Shown here: in pieces, positions 49,179 through 58,019 of the stretch
How positions within the stretch are numbered: the first letter of the stretch is position 1
How the letters are laid out: every line of letters starts with the position of its first letter
DNA from: Bordetella ansorpii
Lineage (GTDB): Bacteria > Pseudomonadota > Gammaproteobacteria > Burkholderiales > Burkholderiaceae_B
Length of the DNA stretch: 64,000 bases
Reading direction: 5' to 3'
Assembly: GCF_900078705.1 (NCBI RefSeq)
Contig: NZ_FKIF01000001.1
Location: 496,001 to 560,000 of the forward strand
Translations under genes and position numbers: made by a program
The notes under the pieces: generated by a model
Databases searched by the model: none
What the model was told of the DNA's origin: nothing
What the model saw: the letters and a program-made list of their open reading frames with translations, nothing else

Positions 49179-51906
49179 CGAGGCCCGACGCCTGCGCGAG
49201 TACCGGGCGGCGGCGCCGCAGCATGTCCCGGATCTCGGGCACGCAAGAGCCGCAACCCGTGCCGCAGCCCAGTTGCGTCTTCAGCCCGGCCAGGTCGAGT
49301 CCGGCGGCGATGCCGGACTCGATCGCGGCATCGGTCACGCCCATGCAGGCACAGACCGTGCGCGCCCGCTTCGCCGCGCCGCCACGGCCCATCAGCAGAC
49401 GCGCCAGGCCGGCGGGCGCCTCGCCGCCATCTGCCCAGGCCAGCATGCCGGCCTGGGCGCGGGTATCGCCCGCCAGCAGGAATGCATCGGGCCGGCGCGC
49501 ATCGTCCAGGCCGGCGCGGCGCAGCACGCCACGCGCGGGATCGTCGAAAGCCGCCGCGGGCCGGTCCAGGCGCAGCGCCCGTGCCAGGGCATCCAGCACG
49601 TCGGCAGCCGGCGCCGCCTCGGCGGCCAGGCGCAGCCTCAGGCCGCCTCCGCCCAGCGCGGACGGCAACAGCACCGCATAGGGAAAGCGCGCCAGCCAGG
49701 GCGCCAACGCCTGCCGCAGCGCGGCCGCGTCACCCCGTAGCCAGGCCATCGCCTGCCAGGGCAACGGGGCCGCCGCCACATCCACCGCGCTGTGCTTCAA
49801 CTCGGGCTGGTGCGACACGGGATCGCACGCGGGAGGGGTCAGCGCGTTCACGCCATCGCCCGCCATGAAGCCGCTACCCCAGTGCATGGGCAGGAACGCG
49901 CGGCCGGGCTCCAGGCCCTCGTCCGCGCGGGCCGGCAGCACGACGGCGCCACGCCGCGAGCGCACGCGCACCAGCGCATCCTCGGCCAGCCCCAGGCCCG
50001 CCATCTCCTGGGGATGCAGCGAAATCCAGGGTTCCTCGACGTGCCGCACCAGCGTCGCGGACAGGCCGGTGCGCGCCATGGTGTGCCAGTGGTCGCGCAG
50101 GCGGCCCGTGGTCAGCCACAGGGGGAAATCGCCGTCGACGGGGTCGGCCACCGGCACATGGTCCACGTCGATGAAGCGCGCGCGTCCGTCCGGCGTCGGA
50201 AAGCGGCCGTCGGCGTACAGGCGCGCCGTGTCGTGGCCGCCGCGCACCGGCCATTGGCGCGGCCCCTGCTCCAGCGCCGCGTAGTCCACCGCGCTGTAGT
50301 CCAGGTCGCGCCCGGCGGTCAGGCCGGCGTGCTCGGCGAACACGGCGGCTTCATCGGCGTAGTCGAACAATGCCGCCTTGTGGGGCGCGATCCGCGCGGC
50401 CAGACGGCGCGCCACGCCGCATGCCAGCCGCCAATCGGGTTGCGCGCTACCCGGCGGCGCGATGGCCGCGCGCACGCGGCTGATGCGGCGCTCGGAATTC
50501 GTCACGCTGCCGTTCTTCTCCGGCCAGGTGGCCGCGGGCAGCACCAGATCGGCATAGGCCAGCGTCTCGGTGTTGGCGAAGGCCTCCTGCACGATGACGA
50601 ACTCGGCCGCCCGCAGGGCCTGCCGCACGCGCGCCTGGTCGGGCAGCGACTGCGCCGGGTTGGTGGCCGCGATCCACAGCACCTTCACGCGGCCTTCCAG
50701 CACGGCGTCGAACATGTGCAAGGCCGGCAGGCCCGGCGTATCCGGCAAGGCCGGCACGCCCCAGGCGGCGGCCACTTCCGCCCGGTGCGCCGCATCGGCC
50801 GGATCGCGATGGCCCGGCAGGATAGTCGCCATGCCGCCCGCCTCGCGGCCGCCCATGGCGTTGGGCTGGCCGGTCAGCGAGAATGGCCCGGCGCCCGGCC
50901 GCCCGATCTGGCCGGTGGCCAGGTGCAGATGGATCAGCGCCGCGTTCTTGGCCGTGCCGTTCGCGGATTGGTTCAGGCCCATGGTGTACATCGACAGCGC
51001 GGCGCCGGCCTGGCCGAACCAGCGCGCGGCCTGCTCGATATCGCTGGCCGGCACGCCGCACAAGGCCTGCGCCACCTGCGGGGGGTAGGCGCCGATGCGC
51101 GCCCGCAACGCATCGAACCCTTGCGTGTGCCGCGCGATGTAGCCGCGGTCGATCAGGTCCTCGCGCTCCATCACGTTCAGCATGGCGAGGAACAGGGCCA
51201 CGTCGCTGCCCGGCGCGATGGCCAGATGCAGATCGGCGATGCCGGCGGTATCGGTGCGGCGCGGATCGACCACCACGACCTTCATGTCCGGCCGCGCGGC
51301 TTTCGCGGCCTCCAGCCGGCGGAACAGCACCGGGTGCGCGTACGCCATGTTCGAGCCCGCGATCAGCACCAGGTCGGCGCTGTCCAGATCGTCGTAACAG
51401 GCTGGCGGCGCGTCCGCGCCCAGCGTCCTCTTGTAGCCCGACACCGCGCTGGACATGCACAGCCGGGAGTTCGTGTCGATGTTGTTGGTGCCGACCAGCG
51501 CGCGCGCCAGCTTGTTGAAGACGGCGTAGTCCTCGGTCAGCAACTGGCCGGACAGGTAGAAGCCCACGGCGTGCGGCCCGTGCCGCCGGATGGTCCCGGC
51601 CAGGCGCTCGGCCGCCAGCTCCAGCGCGTCGTCCAGCGCCAGGGGCGCGCGCGCCGCGTCGCGCCTCGGCCGCCACTCGGCCTCGCGCACCCGCGCGGCA
51701 TCGCGCCGCACGGTGTCGGCCAGCGTGCGGCCCTTGCTGCACAGCCTGCCCTGGTTCGACGGATGATCCGGGTCGCCGGTGACGGACAGGACCTGGTCGC
51801 CGCTGGCCTGCACGCGCACGCCGCAGCCAGTGCCGCAATAACAGCAGACGGACGAGACCGTATGCGCCCGGGCATCGGCATGCTTGATGGGAATCGCCGC
51901 GATCAT
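49171..51906 (-). CDS. nasA: Assimilatory nitrate reductase catalytic subunit with C-terminal BFD domain
   Basis: This 911-residue cytoplasmic molybdoenzyme reduces nitrate to nitrite. The N-terminal CCYCGTGCGVRV ... GRLCSKG binds a [4Fe-4S] cluster. The molybdopterin domains follow (TNNIDTNSRLCMSSAVSGYK, MGLNQSANGTAKN, ATWPEKNGSVTNSERRISR). The last 60 residues form a BFD-like [2Fe-2S] domain (VCACMGVTDAAIE ... CGTGCGSCVPEI), as in Klebsiella-type NasA. ATG 51906 overlaps the stop of the reductase gene upstream (ATGA). Mog, at 9.3 kb, would help make the cofactor. Confidence 0.95.
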   Translation of the reverse strand: MIAAIPIKHADARAHTVSSVCCYCGTGCGVRVQASGDQVLSVTGDPDHPSNQGRLCSKGRTLADTVRRDAARVREAEWRPRRDAARAPLALDDALELAAERLAGTIRRHGPHAVGFYLSGQLLTEDYAVFNKLARALVGTNNIDTNSRLCMSSAVSGYKRTLGADAPPACYDDLDSADLVLIAGSNMAYAHPVLFRRLEAAKAARPDMKVVVVDPRRTDTAGIADLHLAIAPGSDVALFLAMLNVMEREDLIDRGYIARHTQGFDALRARIGAYPPQVAQALCGVPASDIEQAARWFGQAGAALSMYTMGLNQSANGTAKNAALIHLHLATGQIGRPGAGPFSLTGQPNAMGGREAGGMATILPGHRDPADAAHRAEVAAAWGVPALPDTPGLPALHMFDAVLEGRVKVLWIAATNPAQSLPDQARVRQALRAAEFVIVQEAFANTETLAYADLVLPAATWPEKNGSVTNSERRISRVRAAIAPPGSAQPDWRLACGVARRLAARIAPHKAALFDYADEAAVFAEHAGLTAGRDLDYSAVDYAALEQGPRQWPVRGGHDTARLYADGRFPTPDGRARFIDVDHVPVADPVDGDFPLWLTTGRLRDHWHTMARTGLSATLVRHVEEPWISLHPQEMAGLGLAEDALVRVRSRRGAVVLPARADEGLEPGRAFLPMHWGSGFMAGDGVNALTPPACDPVSHQPELKHSAVDVAAAPLPWQAMAWLRGDAAALRQALAPWLARFPYAVLLPSALGGGGLRLRLAAEAAPAADVLDALARALRLDRPAAAFDDPARGVLRRAGLDDARRPDAFLLAGDTRAQAGMLAWADGGEAPAGLARLLMGRGGAAKRARTVCACMGVTDAAIESGIAAGLDLAGLKTQLGCGTGCGSCVPEIRDMLRRRRPVLAQASGLAT

Positions 51907-53129
51907 GCCGTGCAGGCCTCCCTGGCCTCGTCCTCGCCGAACATCAGCGCGTCCCGCAGGGCCTCGATGGAGTGGCCCTCGCGGATCAGCCGGAAGTACC
52001 ACGCGCCGTCCGCGGTATCGCCATACAGGCAGGCGCCCGCCAGCTTGCCGTCCTTCACCACCAGCTTTTTGTAGATGCCCGTGGTGTTGTCGTACAGGGT
52101 GATCAGTTCCGCACCGTCCCCGCCCGAGAAATCTCCCGCCGAAAACAGGTCGATGCCGGTGACCTTGAGCTTGGTCGACGTCACGCTGCCCGGATAGTGG
52201 CCGATGCCGTGCAGCGCCAGATGATTGGCGGCCACGCGCGCCTGCTCGAACAGCGGCGCCACCAGGCCATAGCAGGCGCCGCGATGGCTGGCGCATTCGC
52301 CGACGGCATAGATGCGCGGATCGTAGGTCTGCAGCGTGTCGCTGACGACCACGCCCCGGTGGACCCGCAGGCCGCAGTGCTCGGCCAGCTCGGTGTTGGG
52401 CCGCACGCCCGCCGCCATCACGACCAGGTCCGCGGGAATCTCCTGCCCATCGGCGAAACGCACGCCACGGACGTGGCCGCCGCCATCGTCCAGCAACGCC
52501 TCGGTCTGCTTCGCCAGCAGGAAGGTCAGGCCGCGAGCCTGCAGGCTTTGCTGCAGCAGCGCGGCCGCATGGCCATCCAGCTGGCGGTCCAGCAACGCGC
52601 TGCCCAGGTGCGCCACCGAGACCCGCATGCCGCGCATCGCCAGGCCGTTGGCGGCCTCCAGGCCCAGCAGGCCGCCGCCGATCACCACGGCGTCGCCACC
52701 CCGCGCCGCCGCCGCGATCATGCGCTGCACATCGCCGATGCCGCGAAAGCCGATCACGCCGCGCAGGTCGCGGCCGGGCACGGGCAGCACGAACGGATGC
52801 GAACCCGTGGCCAGCAGCAGCTTGTCGTACGGCGCCTGCGAGCCATCGGCGCCATGCACCACGCGGCGCGCGCGGTCGATGCGCACCGCGGGACAGTCCA
52901 GTTTCAGGTCGATGCCATGCTCGCGGTACCAGTCCAGATCGTTCAGCACGATGTCCTGGAAGGCCTGCTCGCCGGCCAGCACCGGCGACAGCAGGATGCG
53001 GTTGTAGTTGGGATGCGGCTCGGCGCCGAACACCGTGATGTCGTACAGATCGGGCGCCTGCTTCAGCAGTTCCTCCAGCGTGCGCACGCCGGCCATGCCG
53101 TTGCCGATCACCACCAGCCGTTGCTTCAT
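51903..53129 (-). CDS. FAD/NAD(P)H oxidoreductase, NirB-N-terminal-like (NasC-like)
   Basis: This 408-residue flavoprotein corresponds to the N-terminal FAD/NAD half of NirB. It shows VVIGNGMAGVRTLEELL for FAD, AVVIGGGLLGLEAANGL for NAD(P)H, and AVGECASHRGACYGLVAPL near the second FAD contact. It lacks the siroheme and iron-sulfur parts of nitrite reductase and any BFD domain. Placed directly before nasA and translationally coupled to it, it is best explained as the electron-donating subunit of nitrate reductase, as NasC is in Klebsiella. The BFD cluster is carried by NasA instead. Confidence 0.87.
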   Translation of the reverse strand: MKQRLVVIGNGMAGVRTLEELLKQAPDLYDITVFGAEPHPNYNRILLSPVLAGEQAFQDIVLNDLDWYREHGIDLKLDCPAVRIDRARRVVHGADGSQAPYDKLLLATGSHPFVLPVPGRDLRGVIGFRGIGDVQRMIAAAARGGDAVVIGGGLLGLEAANGLAMRGMRVSVAHLGSALLDRQLDGHAAALLQQSLQARGLTFLLAKQTEALLDDGGGHVRGVRFADGQEIPADLVVMAAGVRPNTELAEHCGLRVHRGVVVSDTLQTYDPRIYAVGECASHRGACYGLVAPLFEQARVAANHLALHGIGHYPGSVTSTKLKVTGIDLFSAGDFSGGDGAELITLYDNTTGIYKKLVVKDGKLAGACLYGDTADGAWYFRLIREGHSIEALRDALMFGEDEAREACTA

Positions 53130-53150: not shown

Positions 53151-53945
53151 TCAGGCATGCGCGGGATGCGCGTAGCGCCGGTACAGGAAATCCACCACGC
53201 CCGCGCGGCACGCCTGGTAGGCCGGATCGCCCGCCAGCGCCACGCGGTCGCGCGGACGCGGCAGGTCCACCGGCAGGATGTCGCCGATGGTGGCCGCGGG
53301 TCCGTTGGTCAGCATGACGATGCGGTCGGAAAGCAGCACGGCCTCGTCCACGTCATGCGTCACCATGACGACCGTGCTGCGCGTCTTGGCCACGATGCGC
53401 AGCAGTTCGTCCTGCAGGTGGGCGCGGGTCAGCGCATCCAGGGCGCCGAACGGTTCGTCCATCAGCAGCACACGCGGCTCGATGGCCAGCGCGCGCGCAA
53501 TGCCCACGCGCTGTTTCATGCCGCCGGAGATCTCGCGCGGCAGCTTGTCGCGCGCCGCCGTCAGCCCCACCAGATCCAGCGCGGCCTGCGCGCGCTCGTT
53601 CTGCCGCGCCCGGCTTTCGCGGCCGCCGAACACGCTTTCCACGGCCAGGTGGATGTTCTGGAAGCAGGTCAGCCACGGCAGCAGCGAATGGTTCTGGAAC
53701 ACCATCGCGCGGTCCGGGCCGGGCCCGGCGATCTCGCGCTCGGCGCACAGCAGCACGCCCGAGGTGGGCCGCGCCAGGCCGGCGATCAGGTTCAGCAGCG
53801 TCGATTTGCCGCAGCCCGAATGGCCGATCAGCGTGACGAACTCGCCGGTGTCGACGGTCAGGTCGATGTCGCGCAGCGCCACGAAGGGCTTGCCGCGCGC
53901 GGTGAAGACCTGGCCGACGTTCTCGATGCGCAGGGATTTGTGCAT
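53151..53945 (-). CDS. nrtD: Nitrate ABC transporter ATP-binding protein
   Basis: This 264-residue ABC ATPase has Walker [10 protein letters not shown], a signature in the form [15 protein letters not shown], Walker [13 protein letters not shown] and the H-loop VTHDVDEAV. It lacks the C-terminal NrtA-like domain that marks NrtC, so it is NrtD/TauB/SsuB-like. ATG 53945 is preceded by AGGAG at 8 bases and begins 4 bp after the permease stop. Confidence 0.92.
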
Positions 53946-53949
53946 GATG

Positions 53950-54804
53950 TCACTCCTCGTAGGCGAAGCGGCGCGCGATCCGCAGCAGCGCAAGCTCCAG
54001 CAGGAGCCCGACGATGCCGATCACGAAGATGGCGACCACGATGTGCTCCACCTTCAGGTTGTTCCATTCGTCCCACAGCCAGAAGCCGATGCCGGTGCCG
54101 CCCGTCAGCATCTCGGCGGCCACGATCACCAGCCAGGCCGTGCCGATGGACAGCCGCACGCCGGTCAGGATGTAGGGCAGGACCGCGGGCAGCAGCACGC
54201 GCGTCACCACCTTCCATTCGGACAGGTTCAGCACCCGCGCCACGTTCAGGTAGTCCTGCGGCACGCGCGACACGCCGGCCGCGGTGTTGATCACCATGGG
54301 CCAGATCGAACAGATGAAGATGGCCCAGATCGCCGCGGGATCGGCCGCCTTGAACAACAGCAGCCCCAGCGGCAGCCAGGCCAGCGGCGACACCGGCCGC
54401 AGCAGGCTGACGATGGGAGAAGCCATGGCGCCGGCCATCGCATAGCGGCCCATGATGAAGCCCGCGGGAATGCCCACCAGCGCGGCCAGGCCGAAACCCA
54501 GGCCCACGCGCCGCAGCGAGGCCAGCACGTTCCAGCCCACGCCCTTGTCATTGGGGCCGTTGTCGTAGAAGGGATCGGCGAACAGCTGCGCCGCCGCATG
54601 CCACGTCTTGCCCGGGGTGGGAATCTCGGGCACCAGCAGCGAGATGCACTGCCACATCAGCACGAACACCGCGAATCCGGCCAAGGCGCCGATCGCCCGG
54701 CGGGCGGCGGGTTCGTAGACTTCGCGCAGGAACGGCGTGCGCGCGGCGGCCGCCGCCGAGGGCAGCGACGGGGAGGGGGAAGACGTCATGACGGAAGTGG
54801 ACAT
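53950..54804 (-). CDS. nrtB: Nitrate ABC transporter permease
   Basis: This 284-residue permease has about six membrane helices. The EAA-type coupling loop ([22 protein letters not shown]) precedes [25 protein letters not shown], which is typical of nitrate/taurine/cyanate permeases. The N-terminal 25 residues are Ser/Ala-rich and cytoplasmic. It starts one base after the nrtA stop. Confidence 0.93.
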
Positions 54805-54805
54805 G

Positions 54806-56092
54806 TCAGGCCGCCTTGATCTTGAAACCGTCCGCGTACGCGACGGGGTTGCTGCCGTCCCACACCACGCCGTCGATCAGCGTGGACTTGCGGGTCTCGG
54901 ACGACGGCAGCGCCGCGCCCGCCGCCGCGGCGGCCTGCTTGTAGAGGTCGATGCGGTTCACCTGGCGCGCCACGGCCAGGTAGTCGGGATGCTCCTTCAT
55001 CAGTCCCCAGCGCTTGTGCTGCGTCAGGAACCACATGCCGTCGCTCAGGTAGGGGAAGCTGGCCTCGCCGTCGCCGTAGAAACGCATGGCGTGCGCGTCG
55101 TCCCACTTCTTGCCCGCGCCGTCCTCGTAGCGGCCCAGCATGCGGTCGACGATGCCCTGCGCCTCGGTGTTCACGTAGGCGCGCGCGGCGATGGTCTCGG
55201 CCGTCTTGCGGCGGTTCTCGGGCGAGGCGTCGATCCATTTGCCCGCTTCGAGAATGGCCGCGGTGACGGCGCGCGCGGTGTTGGGATTGCGCTGAACGAA
55301 ATCGGACGTCGTGCCCAACACCTTCTCGGGGTGATCGGTCCAGACCTGCTGCGTGGTGCAGGCCGTGAAGCCGATCTTGTCCATGATGGCGCGCGCGCCC
55401 CAGGGTTCGCCCACGCAGAAGCCGTCCATGTTGCCCACGCGCATGTTGGCCACCATCTGCGGCGGCGGCACGGTGATGGCGCGCGCGTCGCGGAACGGAT
55501 CGATGCCGTAGGAGGCCAGCCAGTAGTACAGCCACATCGCGTGCGTGCCGGTGGGAAAGGTCTGCGCGAAGGTGTAGTCGCGCTTTTCCTTCGCCATGAC
55601 CTTCGCCAGCGACTCGCCGTCGCGCGCGCCGGCCGCAAGCAGCTTGCTGGACAACGTGATGCCCTGGCCGTTCTGGTTCAGGCTCATCAGCACCGCCATG
55701 TCTTTCTTGGGGCCGCCCACGCCCAGGTGCAGCCCGTAGACCAGGCCGTACAGGACGTGCGCCATGTCCAGCTCGCCGTTGGCCAGCTTGTCGCGCACGG
55801 AGGCCCAGGACGCCTCCTTGCTCGGCACGATCTTCACGCCGTGTTTCTTGTCGAAGCCCATCACCGAGGCCATCACCACCGAGGCGCAATCGGTCAGCGG
55901 AATGAAGCCGATGCGCACTTCGGGCTGCTCGGGCGCGTCGCTGCCCGCGGCCCAGGCGCCGGCGCGCACCAACGGATCGACCAGGGTCAGCACACTTGCG
56001 CCCGCCGCGCCGGCCAGCCACCGGCGGCGTTGCGGATTGGCGGCCGGCGAACCGGCGGGGGACGGCTTGGCGGTGAGGCGAGAAACAGACAT
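54806..56092 (-). CDS. nrtA: Nitrate ABC transporter substrate-binding protein
   Basis: This 428-residue protein is a Tat-exported NrtA-type receptor. A PQRRRWLAGAAGASVLTLVDP signal lies at about residues 20-40, and the domain starts VRIGFIPLTDCASVVMA. The family blocks SWASVRDKLANGELDMAHVL, PPPQMVANMRVGNMDGFCVGEPW and YLSDGMWFLTQHKRWG are present. ATG 56092 has CGGAG 8 bases upstream. It is the first gene of the nrtA-nrtB-nrtD-reductase-nasA operon, which is preceded by a sigma-54 promoter and an attenuator. Confidence 0.94.
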   Translation of the reverse strand: MSVSRLTAKPSPAGSPAANPQRRRWLAGAAGASVLTLVDPLVRAGAWAAGSDAPEQPEVRIGFIPLTDCASVVMASVMGFDKKHGVKIVPSKEASWASVRDKLANGELDMAHVLYGLVYGLHLGVGGPKKDMAVLMSLNQNGQGITLSSKLLAAGARDGESLAKVMAKEKRDYTFAQTFPTGTHAMWLYYWLASYGIDPFRDARAITVPPPQMVANMRVGNMDGFCVGEPWGARAIMDKIGFTACTTQQVWTDHPEKVLGTTSDFVQRNPNTARAVTAAILEAGKWIDASPENRRKTAETIAARAYVNTEAQGIVDRMLGRYEDGAGKKWDDAHAMRFYGDGEASFPYLSDGMWFLTQHKRWGLMKEHPDYLAVARQVNRIDLYKQAAAAAGAALPSSETRKSTLIDGVVWDGSNPVAYADGFKIKAA

Positions 56093-56190: not shown

Positions 56191-56246
56191 AAAAAAAAAG
56201 CGCCCCGCATATCCCGGGACCAGTTGCCCGGGATGTTGCGGAACGC
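56191..56246 (-). terminator. Leader terminator (attenuator) of the nitrate operon
   Basis: On the minus strand, a long stem (inner arms ATCCCGGG / CCCGGGAT with an 8-base loop, extended outward by GCGTTCCGCA pairing with TGCGGGGCGC through two G:U pairs) is followed directly by nine Ts. It lies between the promoter and the first gene, about 100 bp before nrtA, so it must be bypassed for expression. Confidence 0.85.
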
Positions 56247-56252
56247 CGTTGT

Positions 56253-56298
56253 TCCTGACTGCATTGCAAGAGCGGAGGGCTTTGGTGGCCGTCCAACC
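56253..56298 (-). promoter_or_regulatory. Leader RNA hairpins resembling ANTAR-protein targets
   Basis: Two hairpins precede the attenuator in the leader RNA. One (about 56278-56298) has UUGG / CCAA arms around loop ACGGCCA. The other (56253-56271) has UCUUGC paired to GCAGGA-type sequence with one bulged U, around hexaloop AAUGCA. Both loops have A at position 1 and G at position 4, the ANTAR target pattern used by NasR and NasT. The first hairpin may start at or just after the transcription start. Confidence 0.5.
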
Positions 56299-56304
56299 TC
56301 CTTC

Positions 56305-56321
56305 AAGCAATCGCTGTGCCA
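56305..56321 (-). promoter_or_regulatory. Sigma-54 (-24/-12) promoter of the nitrate operon
   Basis: On the minus strand TGGCACAGCGATTGCTT matches the sigma-54 consensus TGGCACG-N4-TTGCW at all but one fixed position, with exact GG-N10-GC spacing. The predicted transcription start is near 56295, giving a leader of about 200 bases before nrtA. Confidence 0.85.
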
Positions 56322-56408
56322 GCTTTGATCTCCTGGATTTTCCTTTTTGTATTCATGGACTTGCCAGGATGGCCCACTTACCCGCTGGCGCCAGGCCCGG
56401 GGTTGGGC

Positions 56409-56454
56409 GCACAGAAGCGGTGCGCAGCCCGATGCCATCGCACTGTTTTCGTGC
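56409..56454 (-). promoter_or_regulatory. Two NtrC-type enhancer sites
   Basis: GCAC-N7-GTGC occurs at 56409-56423 and again at 56440-56454, 31 bp (three helical turns) apart. This is the NtrC dyad pattern. They lie about 115-160 bp upstream of the predicted sigma-54 start, closely like the tandem sites at glnA. Confidence 0.7.
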
Positions 56455-56539: not shown

Positions 56540-56569
56540 TTGTAGGGATGTAGCCGGGCTTCCTATGAT
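56540..56569 (+). promoter_or_regulatory. Candidate cysG promoter
   Basis: TTGTAG and TATGAT (5 of 6) are spaced by 18 bp and end 47 bp before the cysG ATG. An AT-rich tract with CCCTAGGG (about 56498-56535) lies just upstream and could hold an activator site such as CysB; no site can be proven by eye. Confidence 0.4.
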
Positions 56570-56615
56570 CCCGGGTATCCTGCGGGCCATTGTGGTCCGC
56601 GCCTGGTTATTCCCG

Positions 56616-58019
56616 ATGAAGCTCTTTCCGATATTTGCCGACCTCAAAGGCCGGCGTGTGCTGGTGGTAGGCGGTGGCAGCGTGGCGGCCCGCAAGGTGC
56701 TGGCGCTGCAAGAGGCCGGCGCGGCCGTGCGCGTGGGCGCGCCCGGGCTCGAACCGGCGCTGGCGCGGCAGGCCGCCGAGGGCGGCATCGATCACGTGGC
56801 CGGCCATTTCGAACCTGCCTGGCTGGACGACGTCTGGCTGGTGGTGGCCGCCACCGACGACCGCGAGGTCAACGCCGCCGTCGAAGCGGCCGCCAATGCG
56901 CGCCGCATCTTCTGTAATGTGGTCGACGTGGCCGAGCTGTCATCGTTCCAGGTGCCCGCCATCGTCGACCGCTCGCCGCTGGTGCTGGCCATCTCGTCCT
57001 CCGGCGTGGCGCCCGTGCTGGCGCGCCGCCTGCGCGAGCGCCTGGAATCGCTGCTGGACCACACGCTGGGCCCGCTGGCCGAACTGGCCGCGCGCCATCG
57101 TCCGCGTATTCGCGCGGCCCTGCCCGACCTGGGCCGGCGCCGCCGCTTCTACGACTGGCTGCTGGATGGCCCGGTGGCTGGCTGGCTGCGCCAGCAACAG
57201 CCCGCGCAGGCCGAGGCCGAACTGACCGGGATGCTGGACCGCGGCTGGCCGCAGGAGGCCGGCAGCGTGGTGCTGGTGGGCGCCGGTCCCGGCGATCCCG
57301 GCCTGCTGACGCTCAAGGCGCTGCGCGCGCTGAACGAAGCCGACGTCATCCTTTACGACCGCCTGACCAGCGCCGACGTGCTGGCGCTGGCTCGGCGCGA
57401 TGCCGATCGCGTCTCCGTGGGCAAGCTGCCCGGCGAGAACCACGACGCCACGCAGGCCCGCATCCACGCGCTGATGGTGGAACATGCGCGGGCCGGCCGC
57501 CGCGTGGTGCGCCTGAAGGGCGGGGACGCCTTCATCTTCGGCCGCGGCGGCGAGGAACTCGAACATCTGCGCGAACACGGCGTGCGCTACGAAGTGGTGC
57601 CCGGCGTCACCGCCGCGCTGGCCTGCGCGGCCTATGCGGGCATCCCCCTGACGCACCGCGATCACGCGCAGTCGGTGCGCTTCGTCACGGCGCACTGCCG
57701 CCAGGACGAGGACACGCTGGACTGGGACGGCCTGGCGCGCGGCAGCCAGACACTGGCGTTCTACATGGGCGTGGGCCAGCTCGAATACCTGTCCGAGCGC
57801 CTGATCACGCACGGCCGCGCAGCCGAAACGCCCTTCGCACTGGTGGAAAACGGCAGCCGGCCCGAGCAGCGGGTGGTGACCGGCACGCTGGCCGACCTGG
57901 CCGCGCGCGCGCGCGCCCACGGCATCCATGCGCCCGCGTTGCTGATCGTGGGCGAGGTGGCCGCGCTGGGACCGAAGCTGCACTGGTTCGGCCAGTCGCT
58001 GGAGGCGCACGGCGAATGA
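56616..58019 (+). CDS. cysG: Siroheme synthase (trifunctional)
   Basis: This 467-residue CysG makes siroheme from uroporphyrinogen III. The N-terminal dehydrogenase/ferrochelatase domain (1-205) starts [21 protein letters not shown] and continues [11 protein letters not shown]. The C-terminal methyltransferase domain (about 215-460) has [33 protein letters not shown] and [25 protein letters not shown] 56616 matches the family start. Siroheme is the cofactor of assimilatory nitrite and sulfite reductases, which explains its position next to the nitrate operon; neither reductase is in the window. Confidence 0.96.

Follow-up and report, generated by a model that had tools for sequence, protein, structure and literature searches.

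The window, the whole 64-kb stretch of DNA analysed here, carries on its minus strand a nitrate assimilation operon preceded by a control region with promoter, leader hairpins and terminator (Table 1). The operon is headed by a frame with a possible start at 56092, as had been proposed. We take it to be nrtA on the basis of the original prediction and general knowledge of the family, and the following frame is presumably the nrtB-like permease, judging by its position and family. The oxidoreductase frame matched NirB only in part, below the cut-off of that model. The genome itself comprises 6.2 Mb in 10 contigs. An nrtA gene was found in three of 15 genomes of the genus, this one included, and the closest named relative among the matches listed was Bordetella genomosp. 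13 (genome G011), with an NrtA identity of 88%.

Divergent from the operon, cysG (sirohaem synthase, 56565-58019, plus strand) begins some 110 bp away from the outer NtrC-type dyad, at a place occupied by an ANTAR gene in many relatives. A terminator-like inverted repeat lies at the cysG start (56581-56601, plus strand). The NtrC sites could act in both directions, towards nrtA and towards cysG.

Table 1. Genes and regulatory features of the nrtA operon, in positions of the window.
Feature	Position	Strand	Basis or remark
NtrC-type dyad 1, GCAC-N7-GTGC	56440..56454	-	Exact match; centre at about −151 from the predicted start
NtrC-type dyad 2, GCAC-N7-GTGC	56409..56423	-	Exact match; centre at about −120; 31 bp from dyad 1
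Sigma-54 −24/−12 element, TGGCACAGCGATTGCT	56306..56321	-	Sole pattern match in the window
Predicted transcription start	56295	-	Placed 12 nt downstream of the −12 GC; from element geometry
5' hairpin at P1 position, GGA-C-GGC[CACCAAA]GCC-C-UCC	56274..56294	-	−7.7 kcal/mol; loop without A1/G4
Weak hairpin, CUUGC[AAUGCA]GUCAG	56255..56270	-	A1/G4 loop, closing C:G; +1.2 kcal/mol alone
P2 antiterminator hairpin, GGAAC[AACGGC]GUUCC	56240..56255	-	A1/G4 loop, C:G closing pair
Intrinsic terminator stem	56199..56247	-	Folds at −34.4 kcal/mol
Nine-T tract	56191..56199	-	Read from sequence
nrtA, nitrate ABC transporter binding protein (NMT1_2)	54806..56092	-	ORF; domain match
nrtB-like permease ORF	53950..54804	-	ORF list
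nrtC/D-like ATPase	53151..53948	-	ABC_tran domain
FAD/NAD oxidoreductase subunit similar to the N-terminal region of NirB	51903..53129	-	Pyr_redox_2, Rubredoxin_C

Both dyads described in the original prediction were recovered as exact matches. The pattern GCAC-N7-GTGC occurs five times in the window with 4.1 matches expected, so that a single dyad is uninformative; what counts is that two dyads stand here 31 bp apart and that this arrangement is conserved. For the latter, nrtA was searched in 250 genomes of the family and found in 78, of which 70 upstream regions were read (left out were G065, G076, G083, G106, G124, G158, G203 and G234). NtrC-like sites, scoring at least 8 out of 10 and lying between 50 and 260 bp upstream of the −12 box, were present in 64 of 67 regions, whereas 100 dinucleotide shuffles gave 6.0 on average and never more than 11. 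The dyad positions are occupied in this genome and in both same-genus relatives, where the spacing is 31 and 32 bp; among the other rows listed, four of nine showed a spacing of 32-33 bp. Upstream enhancer sites of the form GCAC-N7-GTGC are a feature of NtrC-dependent promoters; in this case they form a pair about three helical turns apart.

The −24/−12 element has its GG and GC 12 bp apart and combines the GG-N10-GC arrangement with the TGGCAC...TTGC of NtrC-dependent sigma-54 promoters. Its uniqueness in the window (0.10 matches expected) and its presence as a strong element (score of at least 19 out of 21.5) in 68 of the 70 nrtA upstream regions bear out the original assignment; for G233 and G045 no promoter was found in the stretch. 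A −24/−12 promoter was also located in 71 of 79 named loci scanned for a leader at a threshold of 18.5, an 80th locus being too short. The conserved 5' hairpin of the relatives starts approximately at the predicted transcription start. A scan for sigma-70 promoters gave one weak match, on the opposite strand. The ntrC gene that such a promoter presupposes was found in the genome (662.6 bits, cut-off 558.6).

Between promoter and nrtA, two small hairpins with A1/G4 loops had been described at 56253-56298, followed by a long GC stem and nine Ts. The stem and the T tract were found as described, and the hairpins had to be reassigned. The first (56294-56274) has the loop CACCAAA, without A1/G4, and the upper limit of 56298 falls before the predicted start. 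The second does have an A1/G4 loop and a closing C:G pair, but its stem is unstable on its own; it is a possible cryptic P1. The clear hexaloop of the leader, P2, had been overlooked as such and read only as part of the terminator. Its pattern is the sole match in the window when up to two mismatches are allowed (0.11 expected).

P2 resembles the antiterminator hairpins of ANTAR attenuators in its hexaloop with A1, G4 and a C:G closing pair, and in its overlap with an intrinsic terminator. The 5' arm of the terminator takes in the 3' arm of P2 together with some of its loop positions; the two structures share bases and are therefore deduced to be mutually exclusive. A stably folded P1 with an A1/G4 hexaloop is lacking in this leader, because the 5' loop is CACCAAA and the only other candidate seen is the weak hairpin. 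The 5' hairpin and P2 are separated by 18 nt (56273-56256). In the three genomes of the genus found with the operon, the P1 loop lacks A1/G4, which leaves P2 as the sole clear ANTAR hexaloop. No Rfam family reached its gathering score in a scan of the window, the one match having an E value of 5.9 and 14.1 bits where 50 were needed.

A run of at least five Ts, 70-160 nt behind the −12 box, was found in 51 of the 68 regions with a promoter and was missing at the expected distance in 17 (e.g. in g21 and g19), so the attenuator is not universal for the nrtA operon. The T run went together with the regulator: an ANTAR match was present in 49 of 51 genomes with the run versus 7 of 17 without it. 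In the other ten of these 17 genomes, which have no ANTAR match, nitrate attenuation may therefore be absent. At the named loci searched for ANTAR genes, a match was obtained for 44 of 45.

The folding of the leader was followed in an alignment (A1) of 46 of the 51 T-run leaders, with L058, L076, L091, L098 and L099 left out as odd. In P1 and P2 together 92.5% of the cells were paired; column shuffles gave 84.3% and slid controls 27-55%. Cells changed on both sides numbered 41, compared with 13.8 in shuffles. The number of further pair types (17 versus 17.4) was not above that of the shuffles in these two helices. Taken separately, P1 was paired in 88.0% of its cells, with changes on both sides in five of seven lower pairs, and P2 in 98.7%. 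The lower terminator stem was paired in 368 of 368 cells, and for four of its eight pairs a single cell had both partners changed (four cells in total). RNAalifold, unprompted, gave P1 and the terminator, with the loop positions of P2 paired inside the latter. All three same-genus leaders retain an intact P2, terminator stem and T tract. The conservation of dyads, −24/−12 box and terminator on which the original prediction depended was thus observed in relatives, and covariation was seen in P1, P2 and the terminator of the leader.

A single ANTAR match was obtained in the whole genome, located on another contig than the window, in line with the earlier remark that the window holds no nasT or nasR. 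The protein has a NIT domain (155.6 bits) and an ANTAR domain (67.6 bits), both above the Pfam cut-offs, and its best solved structure by sequence is Klebsiella NasR (4akk, E value of 1.5e-34). These matches identify it as a predicted NIT-ANTAR NasR homologue. The gene lies on contig C7, in the stretch C7:1086211-1092017, where it follows nirB in the same orientation; between the two come the tail of a nirD-like frame, then a nirC-like frame and cobA, all three named from a reading of the translations. Of the regulators that the original prediction had considered, a NasR homologue was recovered, and the ANTAR search of the genome gave no NasT-type gene. A shorter ANTAR protein adjoins nrtA in many relatives, some of which also have NasR. 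In this genome the trans factor is likely to be NasR rather than NasT/NasS, encoded away from the operon it would control.

The presence of a canonical P1 loop was compared with the class of regulator in 49 leaders, leaving out G026 and G054, which have no ANTAR match. The classes were set by hand, with 33 genomes encoding a NasT-type protein (11 of them also NasR) and 16 encoding NasR only; NasT was recognised by its ANTAR match, frame length and, mostly, linkage, the ANTAR gene being near nrtA in 30 genomes and elsewhere in G208, G126 and G107. A counterpart of P2 was present in all 49 leaders. Before P2, an A1/G4 hairpin with a stem of 4 bp or more was found in 30 of 33 NasT-encoding genomes versus 4 of 16 genomes with NasR only, and in 5-6% of shuffled sequences. 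The exceptions in the NasT class were G185, G240 and G221, the last with a stem of 3 bp only, and one of the NasR-only leaders counted as intact (G111) is doubtful, its hairpin using bases before the predicted start. Fisher's test gave 6.5e-6, a value that ignores the kinship of clade members. The case is not rested on it, since members of a clade do not count as independent: the 12 NasR-only leaders that lack a canonical P1 come from three genera (g1 and parts of g4 and g6), and owing to shared descent the effective sample is much smaller than it appears and independent losses are few. In g4, the loop is GCGCGC, GCAUGC or GCGUGC and is able to pair across itself; A1 is thought to prevent such a cross-loop pair, according to the EutV structure paper (PMC8934654). 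Genus labels stand for Achromobacter (g4), Verticiella (g12), Bordetella genomosp. 7 (g16) and Pigmentiphaga (g43).

A second leader was found before nirB. In the NasR-encoding genomes, all 28 readable regions out of 29 fetched had a −24/−12 promoter and a P2 of the form GGC[AANGGC]GCC, which by eye lies inside a terminator-like stem. The 29th region is that of the present genome, where a contig end leaves just the last part of the nirB leader visible. An A1/G4 hairpin of at least 3 bp preceded P2 in one of the 28 leaders, and an ACAANNY box stood 17-19 nt before P2 in 22 of them (by eye ACAANNYRNGC in most); examples are L205:13317-13406 (minus strand) and L206:3835-3925 (plus strand). Thirteen further regions added 12 leaders, G144 having no promoter. 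In the resulting 40, such a hairpin was present in seven and missing in 33, with 10.6% in shuffled sequence, and NtrC-like sites were found upstream in 35, compared with a shuffle mean of 3.4. An alignment (A2) of 31 of the 36 nirB leaders with standard P2 was used only to view conservation.

Among these leaders are six with standard P2 from genomes encoding NasT only. Five had no A1/G4 hairpin of at least 3 bp before P2, the sixth (G249) had one of 3 bp, and ACAA was seen by eye at the place of the box in all six. The nirB form is therefore not tied to NasR, and the idea that NasR alone caused the loss of the P1 loop was weakened, since a form that appears in NasT-only genomes as well does not follow from NasR. 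Two members of the Pigmentiphaga group, g43 (G126 and G107, leaders L249 and L250), carry canonical P1 and P2 hexaloops before nirB and are unlike most of the Achromobacter and Bordetella type. Within the present genome, a second place matching P2 (C6:17567) was set aside as being at chance level, the strict pattern having two places versus four in the backward control. A model of the leader (R1) found one leader in this genome; it was trained on nrtA leaders including this one and missed the nirB leaders of G001, G011, G212 and G089, so its result counts little against further leaders. Being downstream of nirB on the same strand, nasR may sit behind its own attenuator, and NasR would raise its own synthesis if the nirB-nasR cluster is one operon.

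The nasF operon of Klebsiella is transcribed under NtrC/sigma-54 promoter control. The leader described here resembles that of Klebsiella oxytoca nasF in preceding a nitrate assimilation operon, in its NIT-ANTAR regulator and in an A1/G4 P2 that overlaps the terminator (PMC7496416 and PMC3369931). It differs in that both hairpins of nasF are reported with A1/G4 hexaloops, whereas the P1 loop is without one here, and in the position of nasR, downstream of nirB on another contig. Klebsiella NasR selects two A1/G4 hairpins (PMC7496416). Two-tier control is shared with Pseudomonas NalA, the nirBD leader governed by NtrC/sigma-54 and NasT (PMC12830290); NasR takes the place of NasS/NasT in our case, and the nirB leader of the relatives is the likely counterpart of NalA. 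With the dual-hexaloop antiterminator of EutV it has in common a hexaloop hairpin that reaches into the terminator with its 3' arm, and in the published ANTAR mechanism P2 and terminator are alternative folds (PMC3369931). For EutV, P1 was needed in vivo and natural linkers measure 5-12 nt, with loss at 14 (PMC3369931, PMC8934654); here the P1 loop is degenerate and lies 18 nt from P2. The kind of two-tier control is thus already known, and the variation consists of one clear ANTAR hexaloop with a degenerate P1. Among the matches listed in a literature search whose scope took in few subscription journals, no title or opening of an abstract concerned this leader in Bordetella or Achromobacter.

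Taken together, we consider it very probable that the operon is initiated at an NtrC/sigma-54 promoter and then passes a NasR/ANTAR-controlled attenuator acting through P2. When nitrogen is short, phosphorylated NtrC at the two dyads would activate RNA polymerase-sigma-54 at 56321-56306, and the leader RNA would start near 56295. When nitrate is absent, the leader would fold into the terminator and transcription would end at the nine Ts. In the presence of nitrate or nitrite, NasR from its distant locus would bind the hexaloop of P2 and hold this hairpin, so that the terminator could not form and the nrtA operon would be transcribed; read-through by NasR follows the scheme of Klebsiella nasF (PMC7496416). 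If the 5' P1 hairpin has a part at all, it would probably be to give the RNA a folded 5' end or to recruit weakly. The proposal that initiation requires nitrogen limitation and read-through requires nitrate is thereby well supported by the conservation, the covariation, the ntrC gene and the NIT-ANTAR protein, and is changed in its assignment of the hairpins. Both regulators, NtrC and a NasR acting in trans from near the nitrite reductase genes, were assigned from sequence alone. Against this reading stand the position of nasR, unlinked to the nrtA operon, a P1 loop at odds with the two-hexaloop rule of the literature, the number of further pair types, which did not exceed its shuffles, and the 17 promoter-bearing regions with no T run at the expected distance.

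Either the weak AAUGCA hairpin acts as P1, or a single hexaloop suffices. In the former case NasR would bind the weak hairpin as a compact pair with P2, and the 5' hairpin would be irrelevant. The A1, the G4 and the closing C:G pair are all present, P2 follows immediately, and the loop is nearly identical (AUUGCA) in a second genome of the genus; the close spacing is allowed, since in the NasR SELEX both hairpins were contained in a random region of 30 nt (PMC7496416). Against it, the stem has +1.2 kcal/mol alone and overlaps P2 at its base, the closing pair is missing, by eye, in the third same-genus leader, and other NasR-only leaders show no A1/G4 hairpin between the 5' hairpin and P2 in a scan covering stems of at least 3 bp. 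We regard this pairing as rather unlikely. An attenuator decaying in this genus after the loss of NasT, with P1 eroded, control left mainly to NtrC and partially constitutive read-through, is more doubtful still. It would agree with the unlinked regulator gene and with P1 loops mostly lost where NasT is absent, but every same-genus leader still has its P2, its terminator stem and its T tract unimpaired, nasR is kept in the genome and the nirB leader retains the same P2-terminator design. That the terminator is a simple attenuator acting constitutively, or ends a transcript coming from upstream, in either case free of ANTAR control, seems very improbable: two of the 51 T-run leaders do come from genomes without an ANTAR match, but such a reading would account neither for the A1/G4 loop of P2 and its C:G closing pair, both conserved, nor for the canonical P1 loops seen in relatives, nor for the co-occurrence with ANTAR genes.

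That a single hexaloop suffices can be put in a wider form, which we advance tentatively and with somewhat less than even confidence. Working nitrate attenuators with one ANTAR hexaloop would exist; where NasS/NasT is given up for NasR, the P1 loop would decay while the P1 stem, P2 and the terminator stay, and the nirB leaders with the ACAA box would represent the settled single-hexaloop form. Published work bears on the part played by P1. Mutational analysis of EutV found both hexaloops necessary in vivo (PMC3369931), and in Paracoccus mutation of the first leader hairpin severely lowered activity while that of the second did not (PMC5424462). The EutV crystal study reported one dimer per hexaloop, with the minimal target cut down to a single one, and asked for the reason of P1; single sites were expected where no transcribing polymerase sets the time, P1 being kept as a recruiter in attenuators (PMC8934654). 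If the wider form is true, natural leaders would show recognition of P1 to be dispensable even during transcription, despite this recruiting role. Leaders with P2 and without the P1 loop form a natural comparison for the question why ANTAR systems need P1.

Leaders with more hairpins than two were also seen. At least two A1/G4 hairpins of at least 4 bp were present in 53 of the 71 promoter-bearing named loci and at least three in nine of the 71. The leaders with at least three in series (L110, L111, L137, L139, L145, L169, L172, L174 and L178) come from Cupriavidus, Variovorax, Rhodoferax and others.
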